A stretch of 26,955 nt of DNA from a virus, in the IMG/VR virus record IMGVR_UViG_3300028800_000278, positions 1 through 26,955 of that record; one strand, 5' to 3'. Both the position numbers and the translations under genes were made by a program. Positions 1 to 14,065 of the stretch are shown here, in pieces (the first letter of the stretch is position 1; the number at the start of each line of letters is the position of its first letter). Below the pieces are notes generated by a model. That model was not told the origin of the DNA. It did not search any database and was given only the letters and a program-made list of their open reading frames with translations.

Positions 1-1250
1 CCTTGCAACTTTCGCACAAATCCCGCGCGCTCCCCGTATAGATGCCCCAGGAACCCAACCCCGTAGCGCTTCGACACTTCCGGCATAGGGCGAAACACTT
101 CCGTATCAACCCCGAAAGGCAACCAAAAGCCGCGCCAGCGAATAGCGTCCTGCAATGCCGGATAGAAAGAATAAGCGCCGCCGGCGCGCGCCATAGCATC
201 ATAACGGGGAGAAAATTCCTCATCGGCCCGCCCGGCAGACTCTACGTGCCAAAGCGCTACCGGGCAAGCGAGCCCCTTCCACCAGTCCGCCGAAATTCTA
301 TCCGAAGCAAGAGCGATTGCCAGGTCTAATTTCTCGCCCTTCAATTGCTCTATCGCGCCGCGCGATTCGGGCAAGCTTGGACCGTAATCCCGATCAGGAA
401 CGGGTACGCTTAAGACGTCGTATCCCATGCGCCGCAAGACCGCCGCCGCCCCGAAAGAATGATTCCAGGAAATCCACTCGTTCGAACAGAAAATGCAAGC
501 GATACGCTTTGCCCCTACGGGCAAAGCTACGGGGGCTTGCTTCGGGCTCTCAACCGCAACGGAAGTTGCCGTAAGGTCGGAGAGAAACCCGGCGGGTAGG
601 CTTTCGCGGGGCATTTTCCGCCAGGGAGGGTCGGTATACCGGAATTGCCAAGTATTACCACCATGCCGGCGCGCGACCATCATATCCCGCCCGCTCTCCG
701 CCGCGACAAAATCCCGGCCCCGGCTTGCCGCCTCGCGCAAAAAGCGCGAGTCTTCCCCCTGCTTAAGCTCTTCGTGGTAAGGGTGTCTTTCCCACCAGGT
801 TCTATGAAAAAGAAACGAAGTCCCGCAAAGGTTTTGCCCCGGAATATTGGGAGCGTCAAACCAGTAAGCAGAACCGTCCCGCATATCCCAAAACCAAAGG
901 GAAGAATACCCGGTAAGCGTTGCCCCCGAAGACCGTAACCGCCTCACCTGGTCTTCGATTCGCCCCGAAGCCGACCAATCGTCGTCGTCCCATACGCAAA
1001 TAAACTGCCCCTTCGCTTCCCGGCAAGCGGTATTATGCTTTTTTCCAATCAGGCATTTCTCCGGCAAGCGAATATAGCGGATTCGCTCGTCTCGGATAAG
1101 TTCCGGGCTTAGCGGTTGCTCGCCGTCGTCGACCACGATCAATTCCCGAGCCGCATAGGTTTGATTGAGAAAAGCGCGCAAAGCGAGCGGGGCTAAATCC
1201 GGCCTATCCGCCGTCGCCATAATACAGGTTACAAGACCGTCAACGCCCAT
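1..1250 (-). CDS. Two-domain glycosyltransferase (GT2 + CgeB-like GT-B), 3' end cut by window edge
   Basis: The frame opens at ATG 1250 after a strong ribosome site (GTGAGGGGGG) and is still open at base 1, giving at least 416 residues. Residues 1-100 are a GT-A family 2 glycosyltransferase: a nucleotide-sugar binding start (VTCIMATADRPD), LIVVDDG near 38-43, and WDDDDW near 87-92 carrying the metal-binding aspartates. From about residue 242 a second domain begins. It includes PFGVDTEVFRP (about 379-389) and VGFLGHLYGERA, the signature of CgeB-like GT-B transferases. The protein probably transfers two sugars or builds a disaccharide; the acceptor is unknown. The first ~215 residues are clearly paralogous to the glycosyltransferase at 12695-13396 (shared DDDDW, MMVAR..H..NTW and PR..LPA.F..D blocks). 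Its start overlaps the end of the small gene 1240-1383. The GT2 and GT-B calls are confident; the target (virion protein, DNA or host surface) is inference. Confidence 0.88.
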   Translation of the reverse strand, partial: MGVDGLVTCIMATADRPDLAPLALRAFLNQTYAARELIVVDDGEQPLSPELIRDERIRYIRLPEKCLIGKKHNTACREAKGQFICVWDDDDWSASGRIEDQVRRLRSSGATLTGYSSLWFWDMRDGSAYWFDAPNIPGQNLCGTSFLFHRTWWERHPYHEELKQGEDSRFLREAASRGRDFVAAESGRDMMVARRHGGNTWQFRYTDPPWRKMPRESLPAGFLSDLTATSVAVESPKQAPVALPVGAKRIACIFCSNEWISWNHSFGAAAVLRRMGYDVLSVPVPDRDYGPSLPESRGAIEQLKGEKLDLAIALASDRISADWWKGLACPVALWHVESAGRADEEFSPRYDAMARAGGAYSFYPALQDAIRWRGFWLPFGVDTEVFRPMPEVSKRYGVGFLGHLYGERAGFVRKLQ

Positions 1251-1383
1251 AAGCCCCCCTCACCTTTCCAACCCGGAGCCCGATACTCCGGGTTGCCGCT
1301 TCCCAGCCGTCTAAAACGTCCCAGGTACATAAGCCCTCGTCAATCGCTACGCCGTCAATAATGCTGTCTTGCCGCCGCCGCAT
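1240..1383 (-). CDS. Small hypothetical protein (47 aa)
   Basis: I do not recognise this family. The frame fits exactly in the gap between two well-supported genes. Its ATG (1383) lies 10 bases after the stop of the metallophosphoesterase, and its TGA overlaps the start of the glycosyltransferase by 11 bases. This suggests translational coupling, because no strong ribosome site precedes it. The product starts with basic MRRRQ and continues with an acidic, tryptophan-containing middle (CTWDVLDGWEAATRS) and a basic tail. It has no membrane segment or cysteine pair. The frame extends upstream to another ATG at 1437, but that start has no ribosome site and would overlap the preceding gene by 44 bases, so I chose 1383. 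It could still be chance open reading, since the tight spacing is the main support. Confidence 0.55.
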   Translation of the reverse strand: MRRRQDSIIDGVAIDEGLCTWDVLDGWEAATRSIGLRVGKVRGAYGR

Positions 1384-1393
1384 ATCGCCGCGC

Positions 1394-2392
1394 TTACCAA
1401 CGTGGGTATTTCTCACCTTGATAAAACCCCTTGTCATAATACCGGAAGAATTCCGGCGCGATTCGCGCGATATGTCCGTCGGGGGCTTGCGTTATTTTGA
1501 CAAGCCAGCCGCCGACGTGGGCTTGAAGCTTTTGCTTTCGCATGAACGGGGTTTGATCTTGCGTGCATCCCATTTGAACGCAAAGCACTTCGCGCGGGAA
1601 ACAAAAGTCTGCCTTGTGGTAGTGGCCCAGGAGCAAGAGCGCGGGCTTCTCGCCACCTTGGAAACTCTCAACAATCTTTTGCGGAGCGTAGGAAATCGCA
1701 TAGGCGGAGCCGCCGCCTGGGTGCATAACCTTAATCCAGGTCTCGCCCTTCGGAGCCGGCAAGAGAATATCCGCCTCAAGGTACCCGAGATAATGCAAGT
1801 CGCGCCGGCCCGCCCGGTTGAATTCGTCTTGCATGACCTGGCCGATATTCAAGCCTTCGCGCTGAGCGTACCAGCCCTCGTGGTCATCGCCCGCGATAAA
1901 ATGCGTAGTGATACCCTTGCGCTTCGGGTAGTCGCGCGCCGCAACCTTGCATTGCGCCGTCAAGCCGGAAGCGCCGGGAATAAGGTCAAACTTGTTAAAG
2001 CGACACTCTCCGTCAATCAGGTTTCCGCCGTGATAGACGTCCCGGATACCTTCCGACGCGAACAGGTCATAGAGCGAATTCAGAACGTCAAGGCGCGCGT
2101 ACTTCGACCCCAGGTGAGAGTCCGCCACCGCTCCGAACCTGTAAACCTCGCCCGAAATCCGCGCCGGGTCAATCTTGAGCAACCCGCCCGGTCTCATATC
2201 GCGAAGGATTTCCGCCCGCCCGTCTTCCGAGACTTCGCAATTAAACCCGCGCTTTTTTAGCTCTTTGATTGCGCTTTGCAGTTGCCCGACGCCCCGGTCT
2301 AACTTTGTGGAGAGTTCGCGCAAGCTTGCCGGCCCCGCTCCCAGCGAGCGCTTGAGCCTTCCTAGAAATTTCTCGTTGTCTCGTTTCGTCAT
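1394..2392 (-). CDS. Winged-helix / calcineurin-like metallophosphoesterase
   Basis: 332 residues from ATG 2392, chosen because AAAGGGAAGGG precedes it; the open frame further upstream (to 2488) reads as noise. Residues 1-65 look like a winged helix-turn-helix (LRELSTKLDRGVGQLQSAIKE followed by a short wing). Residues 83-330 carry metallophosphoesterase motifs: D91-S-H93, G-N-L-I-D at 123-127, DDHE at 169-172, H224 and GHYH at 256-259. Canonical proteins have GDxxD and GNH(D/E), so here an Asp/Asn pair appears swapped between motifs. Such enzymes hydrolyse phosphomono- or diesters (nucleotides or DNA ends); the HTH suggests DNA binding. The gene follows the MazZ-like gene with a 152-base overlap and precedes a small unknown. 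Family call confident, substrate unknown. Confidence 0.85.
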   Translation of the reverse strand: MTKRDNEKFLGRLKRSLGAGPASLRELSTKLDRGVGQLQSAIKELKKRGFNCEVSEDGRAEILRDMRPGGLLKIDPARISGEVYRFGAVADSHLGSKYARLDVLNSLYDLFASEGIRDVYHGGNLIDGECRFNKFDLIPGASGLTAQCKVAARDYPKRKGITTHFIAGDDHEGWYAQREGLNIGQVMQDEFNRAGRRDLHYLGYLEADILLPAPKGETWIKVMHPGGGSAYAISYAPQKIVESFQGGEKPALLLLGHYHKADFCFPREVLCVQMGCTQDQTPFMRKQKLQAHVGGWLVKITQAPDGHIARIAPEFFRYYDKGFYQGEKYPRW

Positions 2393-2789
2393 TCCCTTCC
2401 CTTTCTTTTCGGCAAGCCCGCAAAAACACAGTAAGAGCGTCGTCGCCCTCGTCTTTTTGATAGGCGCGCCGCTCGCGCAAAAGTTCAAACAGATAGCCGG
2501 AAGCGTTGAATATCACCGCGCAAAGCGCGTCCTCGATAGGTTCCCGGCCCACTAACCCCCGATGGGCAAGCCACCAGTCGAAAACGTGACGCAACCCCGA
2601 CTTGATATAAGCGCCCTTCGGTATTCCCTTTTGCCAGTTATCCGACTCGCGAACCTTGCCGTCCGCCTGGACGCGATTCCGGTTCATGTATTCGGCATAA
2701 CGAGCCATTACCGCCGGAGAAAGAAAACCCTCATAATCGGGCTTCGTTGCGTCATTGTCGCGCGTAGCGCCGGTTTTGAATTGCCGCAC
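2241..2789 (-). CDS. dATP/dGTP diphosphohydrolase-like protein (MazZ type)
   Basis: 182 residues from GTG 2789, which has GGAAAGGAA just upstream; no ATG fits. Residues 1-115 match the dATP/dGTP diphosphohydrolase N-terminal family as I remember it: FKTGATRDND near the start, DYEGFLSP, RYAEYMNRNR, SDNWQKGIPK, a helix ending HVFDWW, and IEDALCAVIFNASGYLFELL. In cyanophage S-2L and Acinetobacter phage SH-Ab 15497, MazZ of this broad group converts dGTP (and dATP) to the monophosphate, feeding 2-aminoadenine synthesis. Related proteins also occur in phages with ordinary DNA. The tail beyond residue 130 is basic and low in order, and it overlaps the winged-helix start of the next gene by 152 bases. 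The start overlaps the deoxyribosyltransferase-like gene by 38 bases, so the three genes form one nucleotide-metabolism unit. Confidence 0.8.
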   Translation of the reverse strand: MRQFKTGATRDNDATKPDYEGFLSPAVMARYAEYMNRNRVQADGKVRESDNWQKGIPKGAYIKSGLRHVFDWWLAHRGLVGREPIEDALCAVIFNASGYLFELLRERRAYQKDEGDDALTVFLRACRKEREGNDETRQREISRKAQALAGSGAGKLARTLHKVRPGRRATAKRNQRAKKARV

Positions 2790-3195
2790 GGTTGTTCCTT
2801 TCCAGCCAAGCGCACGCCGGCCCCCAAGAATCGAAACGCCGGAGACCCGGCAGATAATGGAAAATATGTTGCCTCGGCCCGACTACCGCCAGAGTCTTAC
2901 ACAACCCCCAGGCTATGCCGTTTTCAACGCAATGCCCGCCGCGCGTAAATTTCACGTCGGGTTCAAACGTAAATAAAACAAAGTGTGTCGCCGCCGTGAG
3001 TTCACGGACGTCTCGCTTGGCAGTTTTCCTACAAAAGCTTTCGGAAACCGCCTTCATGCAGACATTCGGAGCGAAGCTTTCCCGGAACCAGGTTGACGTT
3101 ACCTTAATGCCGAGCGCTTCCAGTTCGCGCGCCGCCGCCGCAATTTCAACCTTGCGCGAGTAATGACCCGCGAGATAAACGCGAATACCTATCAT
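2752..3195 (-). CDS. Nucleoside 2-deoxyribosyltransferase-like protein
   Basis: 147 residues from ATG 3195, preceded by GAGGGGGAG. The fold is a small Rossmann-like one: IRVYLAGHYSRK at the start, LEALGIKVTSTWF, then RDVRELTAATHFVLFT and GGHCVENGIAWGL with a glutamate (E in VENG) in the place of the family's catalytic Glu, then TLAVVG. Members exchange or hydrolyse the base of deoxynucleosides or deoxynucleotides. Phage members are thought to supply nucleotide precursors or remodel unusual ones. The start overlaps the stop of the upstream small membrane gene (ATGA) and the end overlaps the MazZ-like gene by 38 bases. It therefore joins the lysis genes to the nucleotide module in one transcript. 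The broader annotation 'DUF4406-like' is also possible. Confidence 0.72.
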   Translation of the reverse strand: MIGIRVYLAGHYSRKVEIAAAARELEALGIKVTSTWFRESFAPNVCMKAVSESFCRKTAKRDVRELTAATHFVLFTFEPDVKFTRGGHCVENGIAWGLCKTLAVVGPRQHIFHYLPGLRRFDSWGPACAWLERNNRAAIQNRRYARQ

Positions 3196-3443
3196 TGCTC
3201 CCCCTCTTTCCTTTCTGCGAATTTCTCCGCCGCCTCTCCCAGCTTGCCGCAACCGTACACGCTTGAGATAAAGACCGCTTGCCCGATAAGCGCGTCCCGA
3301 GACAAGCCCGCCGCAACCCCGCGCGCCCTAAGAACGGAATAAACGTCAAGCGCCAGGAAGACTAGGACCGCGAGCCCGGAAGCCGCGCGCGCGTAACTTG
3401 CAAGCGGGTCATTCGACATTACCCGTTTGAGCCATGCCAGCAT
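3192..3443 (-). CDS. Small membrane protein, possible holin (83 aa)
   Basis: 83 residues from ATG 3443, with AAGGGGGC upstream. The N-terminus is short and amphipathic. A clear membrane segment follows at residues 23-40 (GLAVLVFLALDVYSVLR), with a weaker hydrophobic stretch at 52-68 (LIGQAVFISSVYGCGKLG), and the tail is highly charged (EKFAERKEGEQ). Two segments and a charged end fit a class II holin, but no family signature is visible. The start shares a base with the previous stop (TAATG) and the stop overlaps the next start (ATGA), so translation is coupled on both sides. Function is inferred from location downstream of the endolysin. Confidence 0.68.
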   Translation of the reverse strand: MLAWLKRVMSNDPLASYARAASGLAVLVFLALDVYSVLRARGVAAGLSRDALIGQAVFISSVYGCGKLGEAAEKFAERKEGEQ

Positions 3444-3619
3444 TATTTGAGCCCCCTTGAAGTCTTCACCAGGAAATCAATTTCCCAGGCTTGTTCTTTG
3501 ATAATTTGACTTTGGGTGTAAATCTGAGCCGACGCGAGCGCGAGCGCGACTAAAAGTAGAATGGCAAACTTCCGGCTCTTCCAGTCGCGCACATAGAAAA
3601 ACTCTAGCGCCTCCCTCAT
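3443..3619 (-). CDS. Small single-pass membrane protein (58 aa)
   Basis: 58 residues from ATG 3619, preceded by GGGGGCGGAT. The frame continues upstream, but the sequence there is the shadow of another gene (3616-3771). Residues 1-17 are mixed and charged (MREALEFFYVRDWKSRK), 18-33 form a membrane segment (FAILLLVALALASAQI), and the rest is a short polar, partly acidic tail. The start overlaps the preceding stop (ATGA), and the stop overlaps the following start (TAATG). The order, size and topology suit an accessory lysis protein or a short spanin-like piece, but no lipobox or family motif is visible, so the role is inference. Confidence 0.65.
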   Translation of the reverse strand: MREALEFFYVRDWKSRKFAILLLVALALASAQIYTQSQIIKEQAWEIDFLVKTSRGLK

Positions 3620-3771
3620 AATCCGCCCCCGAGTGGCGCGAGAACCGCGCGCAAGATTAGACCCAACATGTCCCCGACCCCAGCCGCCGCCGCGAGCATG
3701 AAGGCCGGCCAGGCCAGAAACGAGAGCAACGCCGATACTCCGACACAAGCCCACAAGAGCCAGGACCGCAT
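3616..3771 (-). CDS. Very small hydrophobic membrane protein (51 aa), possible holin
   Basis: I read this gene directly from the minus strand. ATG is at 3771, with GGAGGG five bases upstream, and TGA is at 3616-3618, overlapping the next ATG (ATGA). The product is almost entirely hydrophobic: a first segment WLLWACVGVSALLSFLAW and a second LGLILRAVLAPLGGGL, joined by an alanine/glycine-rich turn with one Asp. With two short membrane helices and hardly any charge it could be a holin or pinholin-like protein; no family is recognised. The overlap chain with the two genes that follow supports reality, because the alternative frames in this stretch read as noise. Confidence 0.6.
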   Translation of the reverse strand: MRSWLLWACVGVSALLSFLAWPAFMLAAAAGVGDMLGLILRAVLAPLGGGL

Positions 3772-3808
3772 AGGAGCCCTCCGGCTATCTCAGATTGGAA
3801 ATTTGAAA

Positions 3809-4561
3809 TTAGAGAAAATGCGCGAGAACCGTAAGCGCGCCGGAAAGGAATCCGCCCGCCGCCCATCGGAATTTAGAGCGCGCCGCGTCCCGCTTAACCT
3901 TCGTCACTTCGGCTTGAAGGGCTTGCTTGTCCAACTTGCAAGCCGCGTTGTCGGACGCGTGCGCCGCTTGCTCCGACCCGAGCGCCGCCGCGTTGTTGCC
4001 GGCTATGGCTTGCTCTTTCGAAACCTGCGCCGCCAGGTCTTGCTTGTCCCGCGTCAAAGTCTGAACAGCCTCAAGCGCGATAAGCGACTTCTGAGCCAGG
4101 GGCAAGGTCGCGATAAAGCCGCCCGCCGGAGTTAGAACCGGAGCCGGCTCGCCCGCCGCCGCCCCCCACTTTGTAGCAAGTTCGGACGGGGGCAAGCTGA
4201 TAACCGTTTGCTTCTCGCGCTCAAGCGCCGCGTCCCGCGCCGCCATAGCTTGAGCGAGCCCGCCGATCTGAGCCTGTAAGCCCCGGTTTTGCTCCGCCAG
4301 GTTCGCGATTTCACGCGCCGTTTCCTGCTGTACCGCCTGGTTCGCGCTGTCGCCGGCCCGCGCCTTTTGCTCCGCGAGCGCCGCCCGCGAGTCCGCCCGC
4401 TCCGCCCGGATTGAATCATAAAGATAGACGCAACCTAAGAGCGATACGAAGCAAGCCACAATCAAAACCAGGTGACTTGCCCCGAACGCGAGAAGCTTTT
4501 TCTCTTCGGCTTTCGCCGCCGCCGCTAAATCGGAAGCCGCTAAAATCGATACGGAAGCCAT
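3809..4561 (-). CDS. Membrane-anchored coiled-coil protein in lysis cassette
   Basis: 250 residues from ATG 4561, with GAGGG upstream; an in-frame extension upstream has no ribosome site and odd composition. Residues 31-49 form a membrane segment (LVLIVACFVSLLGCVYLY). Residues 52-110 are a long heptad-like helix rich in Ala, Glu, Gln and Arg, then comes a Pro/Gly region (about 125-150), a second helix (about 155-225), and a hydrophobic C-terminus (GGFLSGALTVLAHFL). It follows the endolysin and precedes the small membrane proteins. The layout resembles an inner-membrane spanin or another lysis or envelope structural protein, but two membrane segments flanking the coil is atypical of i-spanins. 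No named family recognised. Confidence 0.72.
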   Translation of the reverse strand: MASVSILAASDLAAAAKAEEKKLLAFGASHLVLIVACFVSLLGCVYLYDSIRAERADSRAALAEQKARAGDSANQAVQQETAREIANLAEQNRGLQAQIGGLAQAMAARDAALEREKQTVISLPPSELATKWGAAAGEPAPVLTPAGGFIATLPLAQKSLIALEAVQTLTRDKQDLAAQVSKEQAIAGNNAAALGSEQAAHASDNAACKLDKQALQAEVTKVKRDAARSKFRWAAGGFLSGALTVLAHFL

Positions 4562-4883
4562 AATTTTACCCTCTTTTCTTGCGTCCTTTTCCTTCCCCGC
4601 GCATCCACGACGCGTGGGGGTCTCTATGACACAACCACATTGCGACATTTGCACAAGCTGTAAGTACTACCTTATGTCGACGGGGTACACCGCCGCGCTC
4701 AAGAGCGCAAAGAAAACCGGGGTAGCCGCCGCGCTCTTCGCCGCCACAAGCGGAGCGCTTGTTACCGCCGTCCTGTTTTGGGTCTTTCGCCGGCACCTGT
4801 GCGGGTAAGGCTGAAAACTAGCCGAAATTTCGCGCACGTCGGGGTCGCGCCGCGCCGTTCGGGGGTAACGCAGTACGATTGCC
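4562..4883. other. Gene-poor stretch between endolysin and coiled-coil gene
   Basis: This 322-base stretch has no convincing minus-strand gene. The best minus frames (4566-4796 and 4667-4897) have Arg/Gly-rich, unordered products. The only frame with plausible protein character is on the plus strand (4626-4808, listed separately). Bases 4620-4680 are noticeably richer in A and T than the surroundings, which could mark a regulatory region or transferred DNA. I see no good promoter pair and no strong hairpin. Confidence 0.5.
4626..4808 (+). CDS. Possible small plus-strand membrane protein with Cys cluster (60 aa)
   Basis: This is the only plus-strand frame in the window with credible protein features. 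From ATG 4626 (GGGGG six to ten bases upstream; an in-frame GTG lies at 4614) it encodes 60 residues. A polar start holds three cysteines in C-x2-C-x2-C spacing (HCDICTSCKYY), then a basic linker, then one membrane segment (VAAALFAATSGALVTAVLFWVF), ending in RRHLCG. Third codon positions are about 72 % G or C. It lies opposite the operon, in the gene-poor gap after the endolysin. A minus-strand frame over the same bases also looks partly hydrophobic because GCC/GGC codons mirror each other, so chance is a real alternative. Confidence 0.35.
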   Translation: MTQPHCDICTSCKYYLMSTGYTAALKSAKKTGVAAALFAATSGALVTAVLFWVFRRHLCG

Positions 4884-5411
4884 CTACCCCTCCGCATAAA
4901 TCCTCATGCGGGCCAAACCCTTGCTAACATACCCCTCGTCAAAGGTCTTTCCGTTCGGCCCGCCGGTATTCCAGCATCGCAAGAGCGCCTCGGGGTTCGC
5001 CGCCGGGTCAAGCCCCCACTTGCGCGCGAATTCCGAGAGCATGAGAACGGTTAAAGGCATAGACACCGCCGGGTTGCCCAAAGCGAGATAGTCAACCTTG
5101 TGGCATACCGCGTTGTATCCCATAATCTGAGTTGCCCCCCAGCTTGACGCCAAACCGCGCAAGGCTTCGTCACCGAGCCCGGCCAGGTCCGCTTTCGTTA
5201 TAGAGCCGTACCGGGGAGCCGTTCCCACTTGAACCCGCACCAGGTCCGCGTACACTTTCGGCTCAAATCGCCGCGCGTCGTCTCGCCCGCCGCTTTCGTT
5301 CGCGACTAGAGCCCCCACAAGCGCCTCGGGTATGCAGGTATCTTTCACCGCATCCCGGATAAATGCCCCCCACTCAAGCCGTATTTTCGCCACCATTTCA
5401 AGTTCGCGCAT
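4884..5411 (-). CDS. Endolysin, lysozyme/transglycosylase-like fold
   Basis: 175 residues from ATG 5411, preceded by GAGGGGGGAG. The sequence has lysozyme-fold (SLT/muramidase-like) landmarks: IPEALVGALVANESGGR with the likely catalytic Glu39, a middle SSWGATQIMGYNAV (about 88-101) matching the conserved G-x-x-Q-I motif, and LLRCWNTGG (about 144-152) in the position of the family's Y/W-N-x-G motif. The enzyme would cut the glycan strands of peptidoglycan at lysis. No signal peptide is seen, so export must depend on a holin. Upstream (12 bases) is the coiled-coil/anchor protein 5424-5735, and downstream are the small membrane proteins. The alternative is a virion-associated transglycosylase, but its position after the fibre favours an endolysin. 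Confidence 0.8.
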   Translation of the reverse strand: MRELEMVAKIRLEWGAFIRDAVKDTCIPEALVGALVANESGGRDDARRFEPKVYADLVRVQVGTAPRYGSITKADLAGLGDEALRGLASSWGATQIMGYNAVCHKVDYLALGNPAVSMPLTVLMLSEFARKWGLDPAANPEALLRCWNTGGPNGKTFDEGYVSKGLARMRIYAEG

Positions 5412-5423
5412 AACTCCCCCCTC

Positions 5424-5735
5424 TTAAAGCCAGTGAAAGAAATGTTTCAGAAAAGCGAGGATCATTGCCGCCGCCACCACCGCTCCCGCCGCTCGAATAA
5501 CGGTCAATATCGCGCCTAGCCACGCCGCCCGCTTGCGAACGTCCTCAAGGGCTTGAACGCGCTCCGCCAACTCTTCCCGCGCCGCGCGCTCGTTCTGGCA
5601 TCGGCCCGGTTGCCCATTGCCGTCGAATTTCTTGCACCACTTATCAAAGTTCTTTCCCAGGTCTTTGACCCCTTGTTCAAGCGCTCCGAAGCGCGAGCTA
5701 AGGTCATAGAGCAAGTTTTGTTCTTCGTTTGACAT
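5424..5735 (-). CDS. Coiled-coil protein with C-terminal membrane anchor, holin-like
   Basis: 103 residues from ATG 5735, with AAAGGT about nine bases upstream. Residues 1-70 are charged and helical, with leucine/valine spacing typical of a coiled coil (LSSRFGALEQGVKDLGKNF; LAERVQALEDVRKR) and two cysteines. Residues 72-98 are one strong membrane segment (LGAILTVIRAAGAVVAAAMIL...) followed by KHFFHWL. This layout, soluble coil first and anchor last, is common in phage proteins sitting just before the endolysin and annotated as holin-like or tail-proximal membrane proteins. It probably forms or regulates the lysis hole; no exact family can be named. Confidence 0.72.
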   Translation of the reverse strand: MSNEEQNLLYDLSSRFGALEQGVKDLGKNFDKWCKKFDGNGQPGRCQNERAAREELAERVQALEDVRKRAAWLGAILTVIRAAGAVVAAAMILAFLKHFFHWL

Positions 5736-5778
5736 TCGAAAATACCTTTAAGAGAATTTCGTACAGGAAGGAACCGGC

Positions 5779-7080
5779 TTACACGTTTACAGCGTAGGCA
5801 CTCACTACCGCGTTCGCATTTCCGCTTGCGTTGTTGTAAGTGTAAATGCTCGTTACGCCGGCCACACTCAAGTTGACCGCCGTATCAATTCCGCCCGCAA
5901 GGGCCACGTTCCCGACTTGAGCATAGAGAATGCTTGAACTAGAACCTAGAACGCAAACATTAAACGCGAACCCGACATAGCCCGAAAATGTCGGCAATGC
6001 AACCGACCATAGACCCGTGTAAGTGTAATTGCCGCCGCTGTAAGTGACCTTCTTAATGGTGACAAGGTGGTCCGATTGCTCAATGTTGAGGTAGTATCCG
6101 TTATACCCGTCATTAGAAATGAAAAGAGCGACGTCGTGGGCGGAAGGGGAGTTGATTACCCCTTGTATCCTTAGCGCCTTCCAACCGCTCGCCAGGGTTT
6201 GGTTTGCCGTATAAACCGGAGTAACTCCAAACTTCGCAACCCCTGAACCCCAGGTCAATCCTTGCGCCGTCTCTCCCGGATAACCCCCGCCGCCGCCGGA
6301 ACCCGCCGGCCCTTGTGGACCTTGTATATTCCCTTCTTTTGTCCAGGCTCCCGTAATCAGTTCATAAACGTCACCGTTCGCCGTATTTAGGTACCAGTCA
6401 CCATTCGCTTGACCTGAAATCGTACCGGGAGCCCCCGAACCGTAATACCAGAGAGACCCGCGCGCGCCGGCGGAACCGTTCGTTCCGTTTGTTCCGTTTG
6501 TTCCGTTCGTTCCGTTCGCTCCCGCCGCGCCTTGAATATTCCCAACCTTAACCCAGGCTCCGCTTTGCAGTTGATACACGTCGCTGTTTGACGTGTTCAG
6601 GTACATATCACCGTTGAGTTGCCCCGCAATCGTACCGGGAGCGCCGGCCCCCTCATTCCAGAGCGAGCCGCGCGCGCCGGTATTGGTGGGCGGAACCGCG
6701 AACGTACCGTCCGCCTTCAAATACTTTCCCGCCGCCGCCGCCCCCGCCGGCGGAGCCGGAGCGTAGCCGGCCACTCCGCCCGCGCCGGAGTCTCCCACCA
6801 TAACCGGGGGTACTGCGAATGCTCCGCCCGCGTGCAGGAATTTGTTCGCCGCCGCCGCCCCCGCCGGCGGAGCCGGAACCGTTCCGTCCGCTCCGCCGCT
6901 TCCCGCGTCTCCGGTAAAGTCCGGGACATTCGCGGAAACGTCACGAACCCATAAGTTAGGGTTGTTTGGGTCCGGGTAAGGCGCGCCGGCTTGCCACTTG
7001 ACCCCAGCCGCCCCGGAGGGTTTGGCTGGGGTCGCGTCGTTCAAATGTACTTCGGTTGGTTGCTGTCCTGAGACCGCCAC
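5779..7080 (-). CDS. Collagen-like tail fibre with duplicated modules
   Basis: 433 residues from GTG 7080, with GGAGGG a few bases upstream. Residues 1-50 form a probable attachment segment. Two copies of a ~27-residue module (PAPPAGAAAA-K-x-A-x-G-x-FAVPP) follow at about 67-93 and 104-130. Then come two copies of a ~50-residue module (GARGSLW...GAPGTI.GQ.NGD.YLNT...DVY.L..GAW.K.GNIQG) at about 135-184 and 205-254. Between these copies lie collagen-like triplets (NGT repeated four times), and after them GPQGPAGSGGGGG. The last ~155 residues are Ser/Thr/Tyr/Asn-rich and beta-strand-like, probably the receptor-binding tip. The protein likely trimerises and binds the cell surface. It sits right after the tip protein, as tail fibres usually do. 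Confidence 0.82.
   Translation of the reverse strand: MAVSGQQPTEVHLNDATPAKPSGAAGVKWQAGAPYPDPNNPNLWVRDVSANVPDFTGDAGSGGADGTVPAPPAGAAAANKFLHAGGAFAVPPVMVGDSGAGGVAGYAPAPPAGAAAAGKYLKADGTFAVPPTNTGARGSLWNEGAGAPGTIAGQLNGDMYLNTSNSDVYQLQSGAWVKVGNIQGAAGANGTNGTNGTNGTNGSAGARGSLWYYGSGAPGTISGQANGDWYLNTANGDVYELITGAWTKEGNIQGPQGPAGSGGGGGYPGETAQGLTWGSGVAKFGVTPVYTANQTLASGWKALRIQGVINSPSAHDVALFISNDGYNGYYLNIEQSDHLVTIKKVTYSGGNYTYTGLWSVALPTFSGYVGFAFNVCVLGSSSSILYAQVGNVALAGGIDTAVNLSVAGVTSIYTYNNASGNANAVVSAYAVNV
6478..6518 (-). repeat. Nine-base tandem repeats encoding NGT collagen-like triplets
   Basis: Four to five nearly identical 9-base units, plus-strand TTCGTTCCG or TTTGTTCCG, encode Asn-Gly-Thr in the fibre gene. 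Since the unit is a multiple of three, slippage changes fibre length without breaking the frame. Imperfection between units (C/T) indicates some age. Confidence 0.75.
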
Positions 7081-7109
7081 AAACCCTCCAGGGGTCTTGA
7101 GATTTGAGA

Positions 7110-10100
7110 TTAGTTGATATAGAAGGTACCGGAAACGGGGAGAGAAACCGGAGCCGTGGTACTTGCCGGTACGGTTGCCGCGCCGGGAAAGCCCCGACCA
7201 ACCGCCGCCGACATTTGATAGACCTTGACGTTATAGCTCGCTTGAACCGCGCCGAAGTCCGTCACTTGCTCCGCCTGGGAGTAAACCGCGCTCGCGGTTG
7301 TGGCGGAAAGGGTCCGCACCACCGCGCCGCCGGCCCCGAGAATGTCAACCTGGTAAGCTTCGGATTGCTCCGACACCGGCCCCGAGAGCCCGTCGCAAAG
7401 CGCGAAAGCCCCGGAACCGTAAGAGCCCCCCAGCCGCGTGCGCCGGGTCCAACTCAGAATTAGGTTCTGCGCGCCGTCAAAAGCCCCGCCGATGCTCACC
7501 GGGGAGTAAGGCATTAAATCCCGGCCCGCGATAGTAAAGTCTTGAGAAGCCACCGCGTCGACGGTCTGCCCGTTCGATACCGGGCGATAATAACGGAGCG
7601 CCCCGAGAACCGAAGCCGGGAGCGCTTGACGGGTAAATCCGCCGGAGCCCAGGACTATAACCGACTCGTTCGAACCGTGAGAGCCGCAAGCCGCGTCCGT
7701 ACCGCGCCGGCCCCGCAAGAGCCCCGAGACCGTCCAGGAGCCGTCCGTATTTTGGGTTGCGGTTGTGAATTGAACTAGCTCGCTTCCCACCATAAGCGCG
7801 TTAATACCGGTTGCGATAAGTTGCGCCTGGGTCGCGCTCGCGAGCGAACCCGAGAGCCCTTGTATCGTTAGTGTGTTTACTGAATCAAGAGCCCAGGGGC
7901 TTGCCGGAGCCCCGAGAATAGAAGCCGCCGTCCCGATATTGAGCGACCTTCCCCCGGAGTTCTCCGCCCCAAAGGTCTGATTATCGGTTGCAACATAGAG
8001 AACGCCGCCCGACCAACCCGCCGCCGCCACAAAGCCGAAGTAATATCCCGTCCCGCCGGGGTTCGCATCGGAATCTTGCAAGAGCGGAATGTCAAACAGA
8101 ACCAGGGTACAAACCACAAGCGAAGCGCTAGAGCCGCCGGCATAGTTCAGGGTCGCGCCGCCCGATGCAACCGAAAGGTAAGCCGCCGGCATTTCCGAAA
8201 CCGCCCCGAGCGCGATTGTCCGCCCGGCCCCTTCCGTTGTCTTGACAATACGAATTTGTTCCGTCGTTCCCTGCCCCACAAACCGTACCACGTCCGTAGG
8301 GGTCAAGACCGTATAGAGCGCCTTCCAGAGATTCAGGTTAAACTTGCGCCGCTCAAGGTAGGAAAGAAAAAGCCCTTTCTCCGCTATCGCCGCCGCCATA
8401 TCCCCGTCGAGCGCGTAAGGTACCTCAAGAATGCTTTGGTTTTTGGTCTTGACCGCCGCCCCGCTCCGCCGCTTGGCTTGCTTCGATTGCTGATAGTCAA
8501 TTGCCGGGTCTGCGTAAATAACCTGCATCTCTCGCGGAAGGTCTTGCTCTTGCCCCATTTCCTCTTCAAATTCTGCCCGATCATCGGCTAAGCCTAAATC
8601 CGATTCCGGTATGGTCATTAGGGAAGACTGCCCGCGCGGAACGAACACAAGCCGCCCGTCGATTTCCGCCGCGTCAAAGAAGTAACCGCCCGCGAGCGCC
8701 TTCAAAATCGCCGCTCCGGTTGTGGGTCTGCCGATAACGTAGCCGATAACGGGTTGCCCGACCAACCGCGAAACGTCAACCTGCTCCGCCGTCAATCCCG
8801 AGCGCAAGCAAACGTCAAGAACCACGGCCGCCAGGTCGCTCCCGCTCCCATCGGAAACCACTACGCCGCCGCTAGGGAAGGTTGCGGTTATCGTTACATA
8901 GACAACCGCGCTCGTTCCGTCGCTGACATAGTTGCTCCGCAATGATGCGGAAATGTCGCCGGATACCGGAGCGCTTCCGGCCACTCCGATTAGTGAAAGA
9001 AAGCCGTCGAAAGCTACGGAAAAGTTAATAGTCGGAGAATTGAGCGCGCCGGGAGTGTAACTCCCCGCCTGTATCGCTCCGTCGTAGTAACTCGCGAAGC
9101 CGCTGAGCACAAGCGAAGGCCCGCTAACGTCAACCGCGCCGCCCACGAGCCCCACCGTGCTATAGTGGGGCTCTTCAATGCCAGCCCCGCCCGCTTGCGC
9201 CGCAACTACCGGGGTACCCAAAATCTCAATAATCGTACAAGAAACCTCACCGTAGCCGCCCGCGTTATAAGGCGACGGCCAGGGAGAGCAGGGAAACAGC
9301 CAGGCTGTAGCATTGCCTACGTTAGTAACTTGCGCCACTCCCACAACACAACCGCCGCCGTAAGGCGCGTTTCCGATTGACTTGAGCAACTCAAAGCCCG
9401 TAGGTATGCCCGCGCTTACCGCCCAGGGAGAGGCAAAGAGAGCAACCGCAATCAGGGTGTTCCCCGGAGTCGGAGCCCGGTCAAGCGTTACCGTGATATT
9501 GCCGTTACACCCGGTTGCGTTTTTGTATTGAACGACGTTTGGAATTTGCGCCATGCTCGTGCCGGAAAAGGAAACCTCCGCGCGCAAGGTGGGAATTCTA
9601 TTCCCGAAATTCGCAACCGGAAAATTCTCGAAACCCGCGTAGCATAGCCCCCGGAAAGCCGGGGTCAAGTCTTCGCCTTCGTTCTCCTGAATCAACTCGT
9701 ACACGTCCTGGTCTTCGGTTCCCTGGAAAATATCGGGAGCCGGGTATATGCTTGCCGGGGGTCCGCTCATCGTCCCGCCGGTCTCTATGTGTGTGTCGCC
9801 ATCCGGCCCCCACCATTGCACAGGGTTGCCGGTTGCCCGCCCTTCGGCATCCGTCGCCGCTTCGCTATTAATTGTAATCTGCCCCAGGTAGCCGCCGGAG
9901 CCGTTCGGCTCCGCCGCTATCGTTACGCTTTGCCCCGCCGTAAGGTTTTGCAAGACTACAACCGGAGCCGTTCCACCGACATTTCCGAACGGGAAAGCCG
10001 CGTTTTCCGCTCCGACAACTTCCCAAGGTACCGCTTGCGCCGGGATATATGCCTGGGTCTCTCGCCCGCCATTGACGGAAACTAGAACCGGGAAGCCGCC

Positions 10101-10676
10101 GGCAGATAACGCCTGATAGTTGTTGTTAATCCCGAGTTGCAGAACGCTTGCCCCCGCCGGAACCGTTACGGTTGTGCCGTGTCCGACCCAAAACGCCTCA
10201 ATCAAATTCCCGTCGACGTCCGCGAATGCTCCGCAAATTCCGCCCGCCCAACCGGGAGCGCTCCCCGCGACAAACCACTTTGACGGGTAGTAAGCCGGCC
10301 CGCCGGCTTCATAAATAATCTTAGTGTCGCCCCAAATCCGAATGATGTTTGCCGGCCCTTGACAGAAAGACACCGCGAACGAAGCGTAGTAATGATATGT
10401 CGTTGTACTGGTCGAGAGCCCTTTTTTAGTTTCCGAATTCTCAACTAAGCCGGGACACCATATCACGTTTCCGCCGACGCGAAAGGTTCCATATCCCCAA
10501 GCAACCGGAATCCCGTTCGCCGAAGACACTACTTGTAGGTCGCTCAACCTCGGCCCCTTGTTGTCTGTCGGAAAGAGCAAGCCGCCGGCTAAGCTTCCCA
10601 CCATTGCCCCGAGTTCCGGTTGCCCGATTAGAGCCCCCACCGCGAACCCCGCAACCGTTAATGCTATTCTCGCCAT
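7110..10676 (-). CDS. Tail tip / host-specificity protein (lambda J and GTA-like)
   Basis: 1188 residues from ATG 10676, overlapping the previous stop (TAATG). Residues 8-36 are a Gly/Ala-rich hydrophobic segment. Residues 42-120 (LSDLQVVSSANGIPVAWGYGTFRVGGNVIW) and 327-370 (YELIQENEGEDLTPAFRGLCYAGFE..., PVANFGNRIPTL; quoted in pieces) are hallmarks of the J/GTA tail-tip family. Residues 610-830 hold the Phage-tail_3-like core (SRLVGQPVIGYVIGRP, EIDGRLVFVPRG, DLPREMQVIYAD). Two stretches appear inserted. The first, about 150-320, contains WVGHGTTVTVPAGASVLQLG, like PA-IL-type lectin sandwiches. The second is beta-rich, about 371-608. The C-terminal ~130 residues look fibronectin III-like. The protein closes the tail tube, contacts the receptor and anchors the fibre encoded next. 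Confidence 0.88.
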   Translation of the reverse strand: MARIALTVAGFAVGALIGQPELGAMVGSLAGGLLFPTDNKGPRLSDLQVVSSANGIPVAWGYGTFRVGGNVIWCPGLVENSETKKGLSTSTTTYHYYASFAVSFCQGPANIIRIWGDTKIIYEAGGPAYYPSKWFVAGSAPGWAGGICGAFADVDGNLIEAFWVGHGTTVTVPAGASVLQLGINNNYQALSAGGFPVLVSVNGGRETQAYIPAQAVPWEVVGAENAAFPFGNVGGTAPVVVLQNLTAGQSVTIAAEPNGSGGYLGQITINSEAATDAEGRATGNPVQWWGPDGDTHIETGGTMSGPPASIYPAPDIFQGTEDQDVYELIQENEGEDLTPAFRGLCYAGFENFPVANFGNRIPTLRAEVSFSGTSMAQIPNVVQYKNATGCNGNITVTLDRAPTPGNTLIAVALFASPWAVSAGIPTGFELLKSIGNAPYGGGCVVGVAQVTNVGNATAWLFPCSPWPSPYNAGGYGEVSCTIIEILGTPVVAAQAGGAGIEEPHYSTVGLVGGAVDVSGPSLVLSGFASYYDGAIQAGSYTPGALNSPTINFSVAFDGFLSLIGVAGSAPVSGDISASLRSNYVSDGTSAVVYVTITATFPSGGVVVSDGSGSDLAAVVLDVCLRSGLTAEQVDVSRLVGQPVIGYVIGRPTTGAAILKALAGGYFFDAAEIDGRLVFVPRGQSSLMTIPESDLGLADDRAEFEEEMGQEQDLPREMQVIYADPAIDYQQSKQAKRRSGAAVKTKNQSILEVPYALDGDMAAAIAEKGLFLSYLERRKFNLNLWKALYTVLTPTDVVRFVGQGTTEQIRIVKTTEGAGRTIALGAVSEMPAAYLSVASGGATLNYAGGSSASLVVCTLVLFDIPLLQDSDANPGGTGYYFGFVAAAGWSGGVLYVATDNQTFGAENSGGRSLNIGTAASILGAPASPWALDSVNTLTIQGLSGSLASATQAQLIATGINALMVGSELVQFTTATQNTDGSWTVSGLLRGRRGTDAACGSHGSNESVIVLGSGGFTRQALPASVLGALRYYRPVSNGQTVDAVASQDFTIAGRDLMPYSPVSIGGAFDGAQNLILSWTRRTRLGGSYGSGAFALCDGLSGPVSEQSEAYQVDILGAGGAVVRTLSATTASAVYSQAEQVTDFGAVQASYNVKVYQMSAAVGRGFPGAATVPASTTAPVSLPVSGTFYIN

Positions 10677-11098
10677 TATTCAACCCCTGGGATTGCATAA
10701 CACCCGGCAACCCGCCGCAACCACTTCGCGTTTAGTTTGTGTTCAAAGACCCGACCAACCCCCGAGTAAGCGTGGATGATTCCACGATCTGTCACTATCG
10801 CCGCATGACAAACCGACACCGGCATTCGCATTGCCAGCACGTCGCCGGGCTCGCGCGCTTGAATCGGCTTCCCTATAAGCCGCTCTCGGCAAACTTTCTC
10901 AACCGGGCCATCGACGGGTTGTTCCGGGTATACTGCGTACTCCGCGAGCCAGTCGCCCAGGAGCAGGTCGCGCATAACGCAGAGAACCAACCCGACACAA
11001 TCAACCCCGCGCGAGAGAAGCCGCCCCTGGTGCTGAAAGGGTGTGTTAATCCACCGGCGCGCCTGGTTCACTACCACTTGACGCGAAACTGTAACCAC
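10676..11098 (-). CDS. NlpC/P60-family tail peptidase
   Basis: 140 residues from GTG 11098. An in-frame stop lies 27-29 bases upstream and no ATG intervenes, so GTG is the best start even though its ribosome site is weak (GGACG). Motifs: NTPFQHQGRLLSRGVDCVGLV with the nucleophile Cys34, a helix after it, then VCHAAIVTDRGIIHAY with the catalytic His98. This is the tail-associated cysteine peptidase that cleaves cell-wall peptide or processes the tip, equivalent to the NlpC/P60 gene between DUF2163 and the tip protein in gene transfer agents. Its stop overlaps the tip-protein start. A 122-base non-coding gap separates it from DUF2163. Confidence 0.88.
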   Translation of the reverse strand: MVTVSRQVVVNQARRWINTPFQHQGRLLSRGVDCVGLVLCVMRDLLLGDWLAEYAVYPEQPVDGPVEKVCRERLIGKPIQAREPGDVLAMRMPVSVCHAAIVTDRGIIHAYSGVGRVFEHKLNAKWLRRVAGCYAIPGVE

Positions 11099-11220
11099 GT
11101 TAACGTCCGTTTCAGGGGCAAGGGGTCATAGCGAAAGAGCCGCGCTTGAGCCGCGCGCGCTCCCCTATCACTATGGCCCCAGCCCCGCCGCCGGCGGAAC
11201 CGGCTAGAATCGCACACCCG

Positions 11221-12150
11221 CTAAGGTGTCGCGTTTGGATAATTCAAAACTAAGTCTTCGCCGGGTATGAAGGGCTCGCCCCTGAAATTAAGAATGTTGC
11301 GGTACCTCATACAACCCGTCGAGGCGCTTACCGTTCTGTCACAACCGGGGGTAATTGTGAAAGTGTCGCCCGCCGCCGGCGCGATTGGAAAGGGAAGAAA
11401 CATTTTAAGGTCCGCCCCGTCCCAGGTCTTAACCTCAAACGATTTCCCCCTAAGCGCCCCCGAAGTGAAAGTAACAAGCCCGTTGTCAAACCAGTGAACC
11501 GGAGCCGGAGACAGGGGAGAGCCGCCGGTATTCTGCAAACCCGCCGCCGGGGTAAGGGTCATTGCATCCGGGCTTGACGCAACCGAGCCGGATTGAGAGT
11601 AGAGCGACAAATCAATGTTGCAATAAAACCTCTGATTAAAAACGTCGCCCGCCGCCATGCTCCCGAATTCCGCGCGACATACCGGCCCGTAAGTATGAGC
11701 GATTCCCGTCGAAAGCTTTTGCGAGAGCCCGCGCAGTTCCGCCGTAAAGAGCCCGTTTAACATTTTCACGTTCCCGAGCCAACCGGCGCGCACGCACATA
11801 TCACCCATGCTCAAATCGGCCCAATTGACTACCCGCTCTTCAACCCGCGCGTTGTCATATACGCCGGCGCGAATGTCGGAAACCGTGATAGACGCCGAAT
11901 CAAGAAAGCCCGTCACTTCGGCATTGTCGACGGAAAAATCCGAACCCGACTCGCTCGCGGAATTTGAAAGCCCGGTTTCCGCCGCGTAAAGTACCGGCGC
12001 GCTGTCGCCGGAAGCCTGATAAAGCAAGTCTCGATCATGGGTTGTGAACCCCATAACCACGCCGTCCGTTCTCGCCACCTTCCACAAGACCGCCAGGGTT
12101 GTACAATCCGCGCCGAAATGCGCGTAGAGTTCCGCTGAAATTGTTTTCAT
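11221..12150 (-). CDS. DUF2163 baseplate-like tail protein
   Basis: 309 residues from ATG 12150 (weak GCGGGCAG upstream). The sequence follows the DUF2163 / phage BR0599 pattern: a start similar to LYAHFGADCTTLAVLWKVARTDG, GFTTHDRDL, FSVDNAEVTGFLDS, GDMCVRAGWLGNVK, then CRAEFG in the middle and a C-terminal CDRTVSASTGCMRYRNILNF ending in RGEPFIPG. The cysteines near the end are conserved in the family and may hold a cofactor site; in the Rhodobacter gene transfer agent the homologue is a hub protein of the baseplate. Its neighbours (DUF2460 upstream beyond two inserted genes, NlpC/P60 downstream) confirm the identification. Confidence 0.9.
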   Translation of the reverse strand: MKTISAELYAHFGADCTTLAVLWKVARTDGVVMGFTTHDRDLLYQASGDSAPVLYAAETGLSNSASESGSDFSVDNAEVTGFLDSASITVSDIRAGVYDNARVEERVVNWADLSMGDMCVRAGWLGNVKMLNGLFTAELRGLSQKLSTGIAHTYGPVCRAEFGSMAAGDVFNQRFYCNIDLSLYSQSGSVASSPDAMTLTPAAGLQNTGGSPLSPAPVHWFDNGLVTFTSGALRGKSFEVKTWDGADLKMFLPFPIAPAAGDTFTITPGCDRTVSASTGCMRYRNILNFRGEPFIPGEDLVLNYPNATP

Positions 12151-12214
12151 TTGTCTGCCCGCAATGTTTCGACGTTGAGCGCGACCCGCCCGATGCGAGC
12201 CGCGCCTCTTGAGT

Positions 12215-12682
12215 CTAGCTCGCTGCCATCGACGCGAGTACCGCGTCCAGTGTTGCGCCGCCGCCTTGCTGCCTTATCTTTTGCATAACGCTCCACTTGT
12301 TAAGGTATTGCAGATAAGCATCGGGCGAAGTCTCCGCCGCAAGACATACCGCGCAAGTACCCGGCAAAGACTCTTCCGTCGCCGTTTTCCATGTTGGATA
12401 ATCAAGCGGAAGTCCCGCAATTGCCGGAGAGCAAGCCGCGCCCGCCGCGCCGGGAGTGGAATAGACCGTCGCCGGAGCCGGAGCCGGAGCCGCCGGAGGG
12501 TTGAGTACCGGGTTAAGAGCCTTCAAGGTTTGAGCGGTAGTGTCAACGGTTCCGCCGCCCCCAAAGGGCGTGCCCGACCCCGCCGCGTTTGCTGTCGGCA
12601 AGGTCTCAGGAGTTGCCGGAGCCGCCGGAAAGATAGAAGACTTGAACCGAGACACTGCCTCGGTGAGTCGCGAGAAAGTCAT
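12215..12682 (-). CDS. Pro/Ala-rich hypothetical protein in tail-tip operon
   Basis: 155 residues from ATG 12682, with GTGAGG about 11 bases upstream (long spacing). No family is recognised. Residues 1-15 are helical, 20-90 are low-complexity Ala/Pro/Thr/Gly (for example NPPAAPAPAPATVY), and 90-155 form a more ordered domain with a C-x-x-C pair (CAVCLAAE) and a helical end (YLQYLNKWSVMQKIRQQGG). It starts 12 bases after the glycosyltransferase stop and lies in a place where related phages and gene transfer agents have DUF2460 and DUF2163 adjacent. A long linker plus a small folded domain suggests a virion protein or an acceptor/partner of the glycosyltransferase, which is inference only. Confidence 0.72.
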   Translation of the reverse strand: MTFSRLTEAVSRFKSSIFPAAPATPETLPTANAAGSGTPFGGGGTVDTTAQTLKALNPVLNPPAAPAPAPATVYSTPGAAGAACSPAIAGLPLDYPTWKTATEESLPGTCAVCLAAETSPDAYLQYLNKWSVMQKIRQQGGGATLDAVLASMAAS

Positions 12683-12694
12683 AATTGAAAAACC

Positions 12695-13396
12695 TCACTT
12701 TAAATTGTCGGTTGCCGCGCTTCCAGGGGTTCGGCTCCCTTCCATATCGCGGAAAAACTCCGCCGGGAGCGCGGAGCGGGGTACCTCTGGAAATGCTTTT
12801 GACCGCCAGGGTTGTTTCCAGGTGTTCCGAGAGTGCCCGCGAGCTACCATCATTTCGCCCGCCGGCTTAGAGGCAAGTTGCCCCGCGCGCGCCGCCCCCA
12901 TTGCGAATGTCGAGTCTTCCGCCGTTTTCAAATCGGGGTACTTGTGGCCCAACCACCAGGAACGGCGAAAACATTGCGTGCTTCCACTCGCGTAGGCTCC
13001 CGGCCCGGTATAGCGGTATTCATAGGCTCGCGAGTCGCCCTCATTCCAGTAATAAAACCGATGATAGCCGGCAACCGCCTTGCCGGAAGAAATGAGAAGC
13101 CCTACCACGTCCGCAATCCGGCCCGGCGCGTACCAGTCGTCGTCGTCCCAACTTAAACAAATTTCTCCGCTCGCGAGCCGGCAAGCCCAATTGCGCTTAT
13201 TCCCAAGCGAACCTAGACCCAAAACAAATGCGTAACGGATTCGCGGGTCATAGGGAATTATTCCGGCAACCGGCTCCGCTCCGTCGTCAACAATGATTAG
13301 CTCCCGGTCTTCCCAGGTCTGCGAAAGAAAGCAATGTATAGCCAGGGGAATGTATGCCGCGCGGTTCGCTGTCGGCATAATGCAAGAGACTTTCAC
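12695..13396 (-). CDS. GT2-family glycosyltransferase within tail operon
   Basis: 233 residues from GTG 13396; AGGAGGGGAGA just upstream overlaps the stop of the DUF2460 gene and decides the start. GT-A landmarks: VSCIMPTANRAAYIP at the N-terminus, ELIIVDDG (32-39), LGNKRNWACRLASGE, and LSWDDDDWYAPGRI (81-94) with the DxD-type metal site. Then come ST-CFRRSWW and EDSTFAMGAA, and MMVAR-H-RNTWKQ near the end. The enzyme would move a sugar from a nucleotide donor to an unknown acceptor. It is compact, with no membrane segment, so it is probably cytosolic. It is a paralogue of the first half of the protein at 1-1250. Its position between two tail-tip genes suggests that the acceptor is a virion protein, but this is inference. 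Confidence 0.88.
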   Translation of the reverse strand: MKVSCIMPTANRAAYIPLAIHCFLSQTWEDRELIIVDDGAEPVAGIIPYDPRIRYAFVLGLGSLGNKRNWACRLASGEICLSWDDDDWYAPGRIADVVGLLISSGKAVAGYHRFYYWNEGDSRAYEYRYTGPGAYASGSTQCFRRSWWLGHKYPDLKTAEDSTFAMGAARAGQLASKPAGEMMVARGHSRNTWKQPWRSKAFPEVPRSALPAEFFRDMEGSRTPGSAATDNLK

Positions 13397-13405: not shown

Positions 13406-14065
13406 CTACGTTGACGGTTGAATCCGCCTTTCAATTAGCGCCACATCGGGCCATGTAACAAGAGCCTTGCCACCCGCCACGTCACTAGGCTCGATAGCCG
13501 CCTGGCACTTGTCCATATCAAACCTAACCGGGTAATGAAACTCTCCCGACCAGGTGACTGCCCCCGCCGGCGGAGCGTTGAAAGTCAGGAGTCCGGTTGT
13601 CTCGTCAAGCGTCCAGCCGGAATGTTGAACCACGCCGGCAATCGCAACCGAGACCGTATCCCGGCAATAGGTACCGTCAAACTTCTTGACCGCCGAAGTT
13701 ACCGGCTTAAAGATAGGCTTCGGAACGTCGAGCGCGCCGGCATAGCTGTTTTGCAATTGATAAACACACCGTGTATAAGGCGAGTCTTGAACTAACGCGC
13801 AGGGTTCGTTCTCCGCCTGGCAGTCCAAAACATCATAGAACCGGAATATCTGAGCCCGGCCCCTTGCCTTGAGCCACATTGCCCGCACTTGGCAGAAATA
13901 TGAAAACGCCTTATGGTCAAGGGCAATTTTCCACTCCCCCAAAGGGAGCGCCCAATTCTGATTAGTTTGTTCAAACCCCGAGAAGCCTTGATTGACCTGA
14001 GTTGACCAGGAAAGCCCGCCTTGCGCCTGATAAGCAATGTCGCGCGGGAATTCGATTTCAAGCAT
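13406..14065 (-). CDS. DUF2460 tail protein (TIGR02217-like)
   Basis: 219 residues from ATG 14065 (weak GTGGG upstream). The typical DUF2460 pattern is visible: FPRDIAYQAQGGLSWSTQV at the N-terminus, a Phe-Gln-Asn-rich segment, WKIALDH, a region with RFYDVLDCQAENEP, YQLQNSY, ikPVTSAVKKFDGT-like, and a C-terminal WSGEFHYPVRFD followed by IEPSD. In gene transfer agents this is the distal tail protein that caps the tube at the tape-measure end and joins the hub. It follows the tape measure after a 126-base structured gap and precedes the glycosyltransferase. Confidence 0.92.
   Translation of the reverse strand: MLEIEFPRDIAYQAQGGLSWSTQVNQGFSGFEQTNQNWALPLGEWKIALDHKAFSYFCQVRAMWLKARGRAQIFRFYDVLDCQAENEPCALVQDSPYTRCVYQLQNSYAGALDVPKPIFKPVTSAVKKFDGTYCRDTVSVAIAGVVQHSGWTLDETTGLLTFNAPPAGAVTWSGEFHYPVRFDMDKCQAAIEPSDVAGGKALVTWPDVALIERRIQPST

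Follow-up and report, generated by a model that had tools for sequence, protein, structure and literature searches.

A glycosyltransferase gene in the tail-tip operon of a GTA-like siphophage contig and a paralogue at a distal locus

Gene content of the contig

The window analysed here is the complete viral-contig record IMGVR_UViG_3300028800_000278, 26,955 bases long and classed as a likely fragment, in which nearly all long coding frames with known functions, assigned by Pfam and PHROG profiles, lie on the minus strand. Read in gene direction, the head end comprises small terminase-like, large terminase, portal, protease, capsid, adaptor and tail genes and the tape measure, the names of the head genes being partly our own reading of the sequences. 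The tape measure is followed by DUF2460, a glycosyltransferase here termed GT_B, a 155-aa ORF, DUF2163, an NlpC/P60-like peptidase, a megatron-like protein and a fibre candidate; lysis-type genes, nucleotide-metabolism-like genes, a phosphoesterase-like gene and a second glycosyltransferase, GT_A, which runs off the contig end, complete the order. A preliminary description had placed the two glycosyltransferases at 1-1250 and 12695-13396, and both are found there, on the minus strand. The features of the tail and distal regions are as follows.

14192..16570, minus strand: tape measure protein (PF09718, 36 bits), shares an operon with DUF2460, which it precedes
13406..14065, minus strand: DUF2460, distal tail protein (PF09343, 113.7 bits)
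12695..13396, minus strand: GT_B, tail-locus GT2 glycosyltransferase, 233 aa (PF00535, 67.0 bits)
12215..12682, minus strand: Pro/Ala/Thr/Ser-rich 155-aa ORF, no family match; possible acceptor
11221..12150, minus strand: DUF2163, baseplate hub (PF09931, 151 bits, and PF09356, 79 bits)
10676..11098, minus strand: NlpC/P60-like tail peptidase (PF00877, 17.3 bits, below cut-off; PHROG 329, minor tail protein)
7110..10676, minus strand: megatron-like tail tip protein (PF13550 and PF23666; PHROG 4271)
5779..7080, minus strand: tail-fibre candidate (PHROG 3904, E 1.6e-7) with collagen-like G-X-Y repeats, among them (GTN)n; possible acceptor
2241..2789, minus strand: dATP/dGTP-diphosphohydrolase-N-like gene (PF18909, 18.7 bits, below the 27-bit cut-off); syntenic marker of the distal locus
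1394..2488, minus strand: metallophosphoesterase-like gene with HTH-like N-terminus (PF12850 and PF25212 match weakly, under their cut-offs); syntenic marker that precedes the distal glycosyltransferase locus
555..1250, minus strand: GT_A N-terminal GT2 domain, residues 1-232 (PF00535, 60.8 bits; 42% identity to GT_B)
3..518, minus strand: C-terminal part of GT_A (residues 245-416), in all probability incomplete and the start of a CgeB/PF13524-type GT-B enzyme, cut by the contig end (match to a PF13524 protein, residues 373-416)

A glycosyltransferase between distal tail protein and hub

The DUF2460 family is presumably that of RcGTA g12. In RcGTA, g12 is the distal tail protein (PMC7296036), and the window retains both the gene families and the order of the RcGTA-type tail tip, namely distal tail protein (g12), hub (g13), peptidase and megatron (g15) (order from PMC7296036). 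Most relatives, however, have no glycosyltransferase between distal tail protein and hub: among the 82 viral loci with both neighbours placed, a count in which a few contigs figure twice, the gap between DUF2460 and DUF2163 is below 300 bases in 69, in agreement with the earlier statement that these genes are usually neighbours and that GT_B interrupts them. GT_B starts 9 bases past DUF2460, and the 155-aa ORF and DUF2163 come after it. A glycosyltransferase occupies this gap in 4 of the 82 surveyed loci, plus the window, and GT_B orthologues in the identical gap are 57% (L003), 51% (L142), 49% (L004) and 47% (L214) identical, so that the arrangement DUF2460-GT2-DUF2163 is present in five lineages, the window and these four; L144, L145, L147 and L148 are near-copies of L142, and L203 is the L003 contig. 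An HMM of the GT2 family run over 88 tail loci matched only L004, L142, L203, L214 and L227, the GT2 of L227 sitting at the head-tail adaptor position. L146 is without a tail glycosyltransferase, though its DUF2460 is 61% identical to that of the window. Found in few of the 88 loci and missing in L146, the gene is thus an accessory one that phages have acquired or lost at one set position.

The Pro/Ala-rich protein reported after GT_B proved to be as described, with 50% P/A/S/T in its 155 residues and no match in Pfam, PHROG or NCBIfam. It was considered as a conserved partner of the glycosyltransferase and rejected, since it occurs in the window only, an unrelated 125-aa ORF taking its place in L004 and none in L142. 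A host search with DUF2460 across 385 Alphaproteobacteria and 396 genomes from an Acidobacteriota-centred draw returned no close prophage and a single match of 37%.

Relationship and fold of the two GT2 enzymes

The proposal that the two GT2 enzymes are paralogues with shared motifs is borne out by BLASTP, which aligns residues 7-229 of GT_A with GT_B at 93 identities in 223 positions (42%; 164 bits, E 5e-53). All four motifs, VDDG, WDDDDW, MMVAR.H..NTW and PR..LPA.F..D, are present in both proteins, and both pass the PF00535 cut-off of 23.3 bits (GT_A 60.8, GT_B 67.0). GT_B is the best match of GT_A among 186 related domains, and the two are more alike than GT2 enzymes taken at random, the outcome that the preliminary description had sought in an alignment of the two. 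At the level of sequence, the paralogy is sound. In GC and GC3, both genes are similar to the remainder of the window.

How the two copies arose is less simple. In a tree of 88 rows, the tail glycosyltransferases form one clade (100/98) with GT_A as its sister (99/89), and a phage-only clade (99/92) holds 16 phage sequences; in a second tree, with L214 and L227 added, GT_A still falls outside the tail clade at lower supports, the phage clade receiving 93/93. Both GT2s belong to a largely phage-only GT2 clade, and in the best tree the tail enzymes are orthologues of one another with the left-edge GT_A as their sister. Forcing GT_A and GT_B together was not rejected by the AU test (p 0.13 with the first tree, 0.07 with the second). 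Given the position of GT_A outside the tail clade and these p values, a recent duplication private to the window phage seems disfavoured, though not rejected. The earlier claim that one gene is a duplicate of the other therefore stands as regards paralogy, whereas in the best trees GT_A falls outside the group formed by the five tail-locus enzymes.

The AlphaFold2 model of GT_B (pLDDT 95.4, from a 47-sequence alignment) has as its best solved matches SpsA (E 7e-13), TarP, TarS, RmlT, CgT and heparosan synthase 2 (Z about 21), which settles the class of GT_B as GT2 with a GT-A fold. Invariant among the 47 homologues are T9, R12, G65, N69, W83, D84-D87, W148, D161 and H188, and thus the Asp-rich metal/nucleotide-sugar motif W-D-D-D-D. 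GT_B shares with TarP, SpsA and RmlT the GT-A fold, a DxD-type metal site and the character of a soluble GT2, but it is only 17-24% identical to them, and these enzymes use other acceptors and lie in no phage structural operon. GT_A, modelled without an alignment, gave a poor structure (pLDDT 37.5).

The distal locus

Two relatives with a tail glycosyltransferase, L142 and L214, are the only ones found whose contigs reach the position of GT_A. At that position L142 has a homologue of the 2241-2789 gene (53% identical), a phosphoesterase, a 288-aa ORF and a GT-B gene (PF00534, 31.2 bits). L214 has both marker genes (the 2241-2789 homologue 58% identical, the phosphoesterase 84% identical to that of L142), then a DUF4254-like ORF, a 308-aa ORF, a 217-aa PF00535-like ORF (18.8 bits, below the Pfam cut-off) and, at the contig end, another PF00535-like ORF. 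From our reading of their motifs, the 288-aa and 308-aa ORFs are candidate glycosyltransferases. Genes of glycosyltransferase type therefore stand at the distal position in three lineages—the window, L142 and L214—and the distal marker genes had no match in any locus without a tail glycosyltransferase. The phosphoesterase-like gene of the window has no detectable relation to that of L142, its position being analogous in L142 and L214. The window gene at 1394-2488 seemingly fuses an HTH-like segment with the metallophosphoesterase-like domain, and in L142 and L214 a small separate ORF precedes the phosphoesterase.

Since the tail GT2 is fixed in five lineages and the distal genes differ, the layout consists of two loci: at the tail tip a GT2 locked in position, and distally a cassette with changing enzymes. 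Co-occurrence of both copies in relatives, named earlier as a check, is not supported: GT_A itself was found in no other contig, and L142 and L214 have other enzymes in its place. These observations also bear on the possibility that the two genes are independent, GT_B acting on the virion and GT_A being an unrelated accessory gene taken up from a different phage. Transfer would fit both the finding of GT_A in a single contig and its place as sister to the tail clade, but the sole tail-glycosyltransferase relatives found reaching that position, L142 and L214, have glycosyltransferase-type genes there as well, and we consider independence decidedly unlikely.

The second half of GT_A had been described as a CgeB-like GT-B domain fused to the GT2. 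Its ORF is still open at base 3, where the contig ends, at about the point where PF13524 would begin. Residues ~372-416 resemble a PF13524 protein (L182/L187) at 40% over 43 aa, a weak match to which hhalign gives a probability of 81; the matched protein has 350 aa, scores 78 bits with PF13524 from just past the start of the match and is among the two best in 385 Alphaproteobacterial genomes. The C-terminal half has no full-length similarity to this protein, no Pfam match even at E 10 and no PDB sequence match, and nothing beyond the weak PF13524 match was found in genome contigs, phages, plasmids and the 385 Alphaproteobacteria. A CgeB/GT-B identity is therefore plausible on the strength of the short match, for a half that is incomplete and shows no Pfam domain. 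Searches with the whole of GT_A found nothing in viral contigs or the phage collection. Among all these searches, a Pantoea phage match (E 0.9) inside a methyltransferase gene was dismissed as fortuitous.

The surroundings of GT_A raise the further question of whether it, and perhaps GT_B, glycosylates phage DNA at hypermodified bases. GT_A lies near dGTP-diphosphohydrolase-like and phosphoesterase/nuclease-like genes, and DNA-glycosylating enzymes of phages exist (Pyle 2024, as cited in PMC12619734; T4, PMC13216743). However, no gene of the hydroxymethylase type came to notice in three fragments, namely the window, the L142 contig and the outer part of the L003 contig; GT_A and GT_B match only GT2 models in Pfam (E 0.01), not the T4-type enzyme, and nothing in PHROGs; and GT_B is placed among tail genes. 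DNA as the substrate is, in our judgement, improbable.

Relatives in head-neck operons and in bacteria

The other members of the phage clade are mostly found in the head-neck operon. The GT2 follows a capsid-like gene in L005, L015 and L045 and lies among adaptor genes in L016, L026, L027, L036 and L043. In L045 the order is capsid, GT2, two further glycosyltransferase-like genes (one over the Pfam cut-off, PF13704 at 31.9 bits) and adaptor. A second glycosyltransferase-like gene is present in L016 and L043, with a Glyco_transf_7C match of 27.1 bits, over the cut-off, in L016. Methyltransferases over the cut-off come after the GT2 in L043 and L005, and an FkbM methyltransferase, likewise over the cut-off, lies three genes past it in L015. 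A natural reading of these neighbourhoods is a pathway that would produce a methyl-capped oligosaccharide.

Fusions are common in this GT2 family. Bacterial single-chain proteins of ~1,150 aa join GT2, GT9, GT4 and methyltransferase domains (L066, L068, L106), and Pfam identifies a GT2-Galactosyl_T fusion in a phage contig (L053, 9609-10958). By eye, a protein of L007 (7976-9550) joins a GT2 of the wider family to a half resembling the second domain of the L053 protein. Pedobacter clusters (L074, L081, L086, L111, L128, L130) hold up to eight GT2 genes of the GT_B family per 20 kb.

Such bacterial relatives, large multi-glycosyltransferase proteins and glycosyltransferase clusters among them, would accord with enzymes that modify a polysaccharide of the host surface, serving superinfection exclusion or receptor masking like the prophage-encoded TarP or gtr enzymes. 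The presence of TarP, TarS, RmlT and SpsA among the closest folds of GT_B points the same way, as does the 217-aa distal ORF of L214, which has relatives in bacterial glycosyltransferase clusters and, in L079, a homologue directly after a GT2 of the GT_B family. GT_B is, however, locked in a tail-tip operon that is probably expressed near lysis, its neighbourhood showed no gene for a flippase, a GtrA-like protein or an integrase, and the sister enzymes adjoin capsid genes; we regard action on the host surface as unlikely.

Comparison with known phage glycosylation genes

The nearest described arrangement is that of Corndog (cluster O), in which gp35-gp38 encode an O-methyltransferase, two glycosyltransferases and a GlcNAc-transferase in the structural operon and for which capsid modification has been proposed (PMC4351075). 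Compared by description only, the likeness lies in glycosyltransferase genes inside a structural operon, as GT_B lies between DUF2460 and DUF2163 in five lineages; in Corndog, by contrast, the genes stand between portal and protease, the host is actinobacterial and there is no tail-tip glycosyltransferase. Mycobacteriophage glycans have been reported on capsid and tail tube (Freeman 2023, as cited in PMC12619734). Tweety gp104, a cluster F1 GT2, aligns over most of GT_B (24%, E 0.003; hhalign probability 92) but lies far from the structural genes, and its similarity is far below ortholog level. The phage collection gave no match spanning most of GT_B or its L142 orthologue. A literature search, with most subscription papers lying outside it, found no published description of a glycosyltransferase at the distal-tail/hub junction. 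The kind of system is thus known from Corndog-type mycobacteriophage cassettes; what looks new is where the gene sits, the clade of the enzymes and the arrangement in two loci.

A possible glycosylation pathway on the virion

The tail gene of five lineages, together with the sugar-transfer-type genes at the second spot in three of them, suggests that these phages decorate their own particles. In the reading we prefer, GT_A and GT_B would constitute a phage-encoded glycosylation pathway acting on the phage's own virion, most likely on a tail-tip or fibre protein. It draws on the GT2 in the gap of five lineages, the phage clade in head-neck operons, the glycosyltransferase and methyltransferase neighbours, the distal glycosyltransferase-type genes, the fold of GT_B and the mycobacteriophage precedents. 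Against it count the window-only occurrence of both acceptor candidates, the 155-aa ORF and the collagen-like fibre repeats; the lack of a family match for the 288-aa ORF of L142 and the 308-aa ORF of L214; and the lack of detectable homology among the distal enzymes of the window, L142 and L214. The nearest solved structures to GT_B, moreover, are enzymes whose substrates are polysaccharides or teichoic acid rather than protein, and the bacterial relatives are multi-domain glycosyltransferase proteins and clusters resembling those for surface polysaccharides. Our judgement of this reading is evenly balanced.

GT_B would act as a soluble GT2 with a conserved DDDD metal site, presumably expressed late together with the tail-tip genes, and would add a single sugar, drawn from a nucleotide-sugar of the host, to its acceptor during assembly; the distal locus, with GT_A as a GT2 joined to a probable GT-B, would then add one or two further sugars. 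The multi-step phage glycan first envisaged gains support from the tail GT2 of five lineages, the head-neck sister GT2s with their glycosyltransferases and methyltransferases and the distal glycosyltransferase-type genes, whereas a private duplication, the co-occurrence of both copies and a function for the Pro/Ala-rich ORF are not supported. More generally, GTA-like siphophages might possess a two-locus system in which a glycan is begun on a tail-tip protein by the position-locked GT2 and lengthened by exchangeable distal glycosyltransferases, a tentative and somewhat doubtful extension. Related phages would in that case vary the sugar of the adsorption apparatus, much like bacterial O-antigen variation, and the variable distal cassette would offer ready material for work on the diversification of viral surface chemistry. 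Tail-tip glycosylation in GTA-related siphophages, if real, would link virion sugars to adsorption, beyond shielding, and the conserved position singles out one enzyme and a few candidate acceptors, namely the distal tail protein, the hub, the megatron and the fibre.

Two of these candidates have features of their own. The GTN triplet run of the fibre candidate (5779-7080) forms N-G-T/S sequons; its collagen-like repeats were rejected as a shared acceptor, being confined to the window among phages with a tail glycosyltransferase. The DUF2163 hubs of L214 (7637-10819) and L236 (7714-11058) are longer than 1,000 aa and have several hundred additional residues ahead of the N-terminal domain or within it; sizeable inserts, perhaps adhesive ones, seem to be accommodated by the hub.
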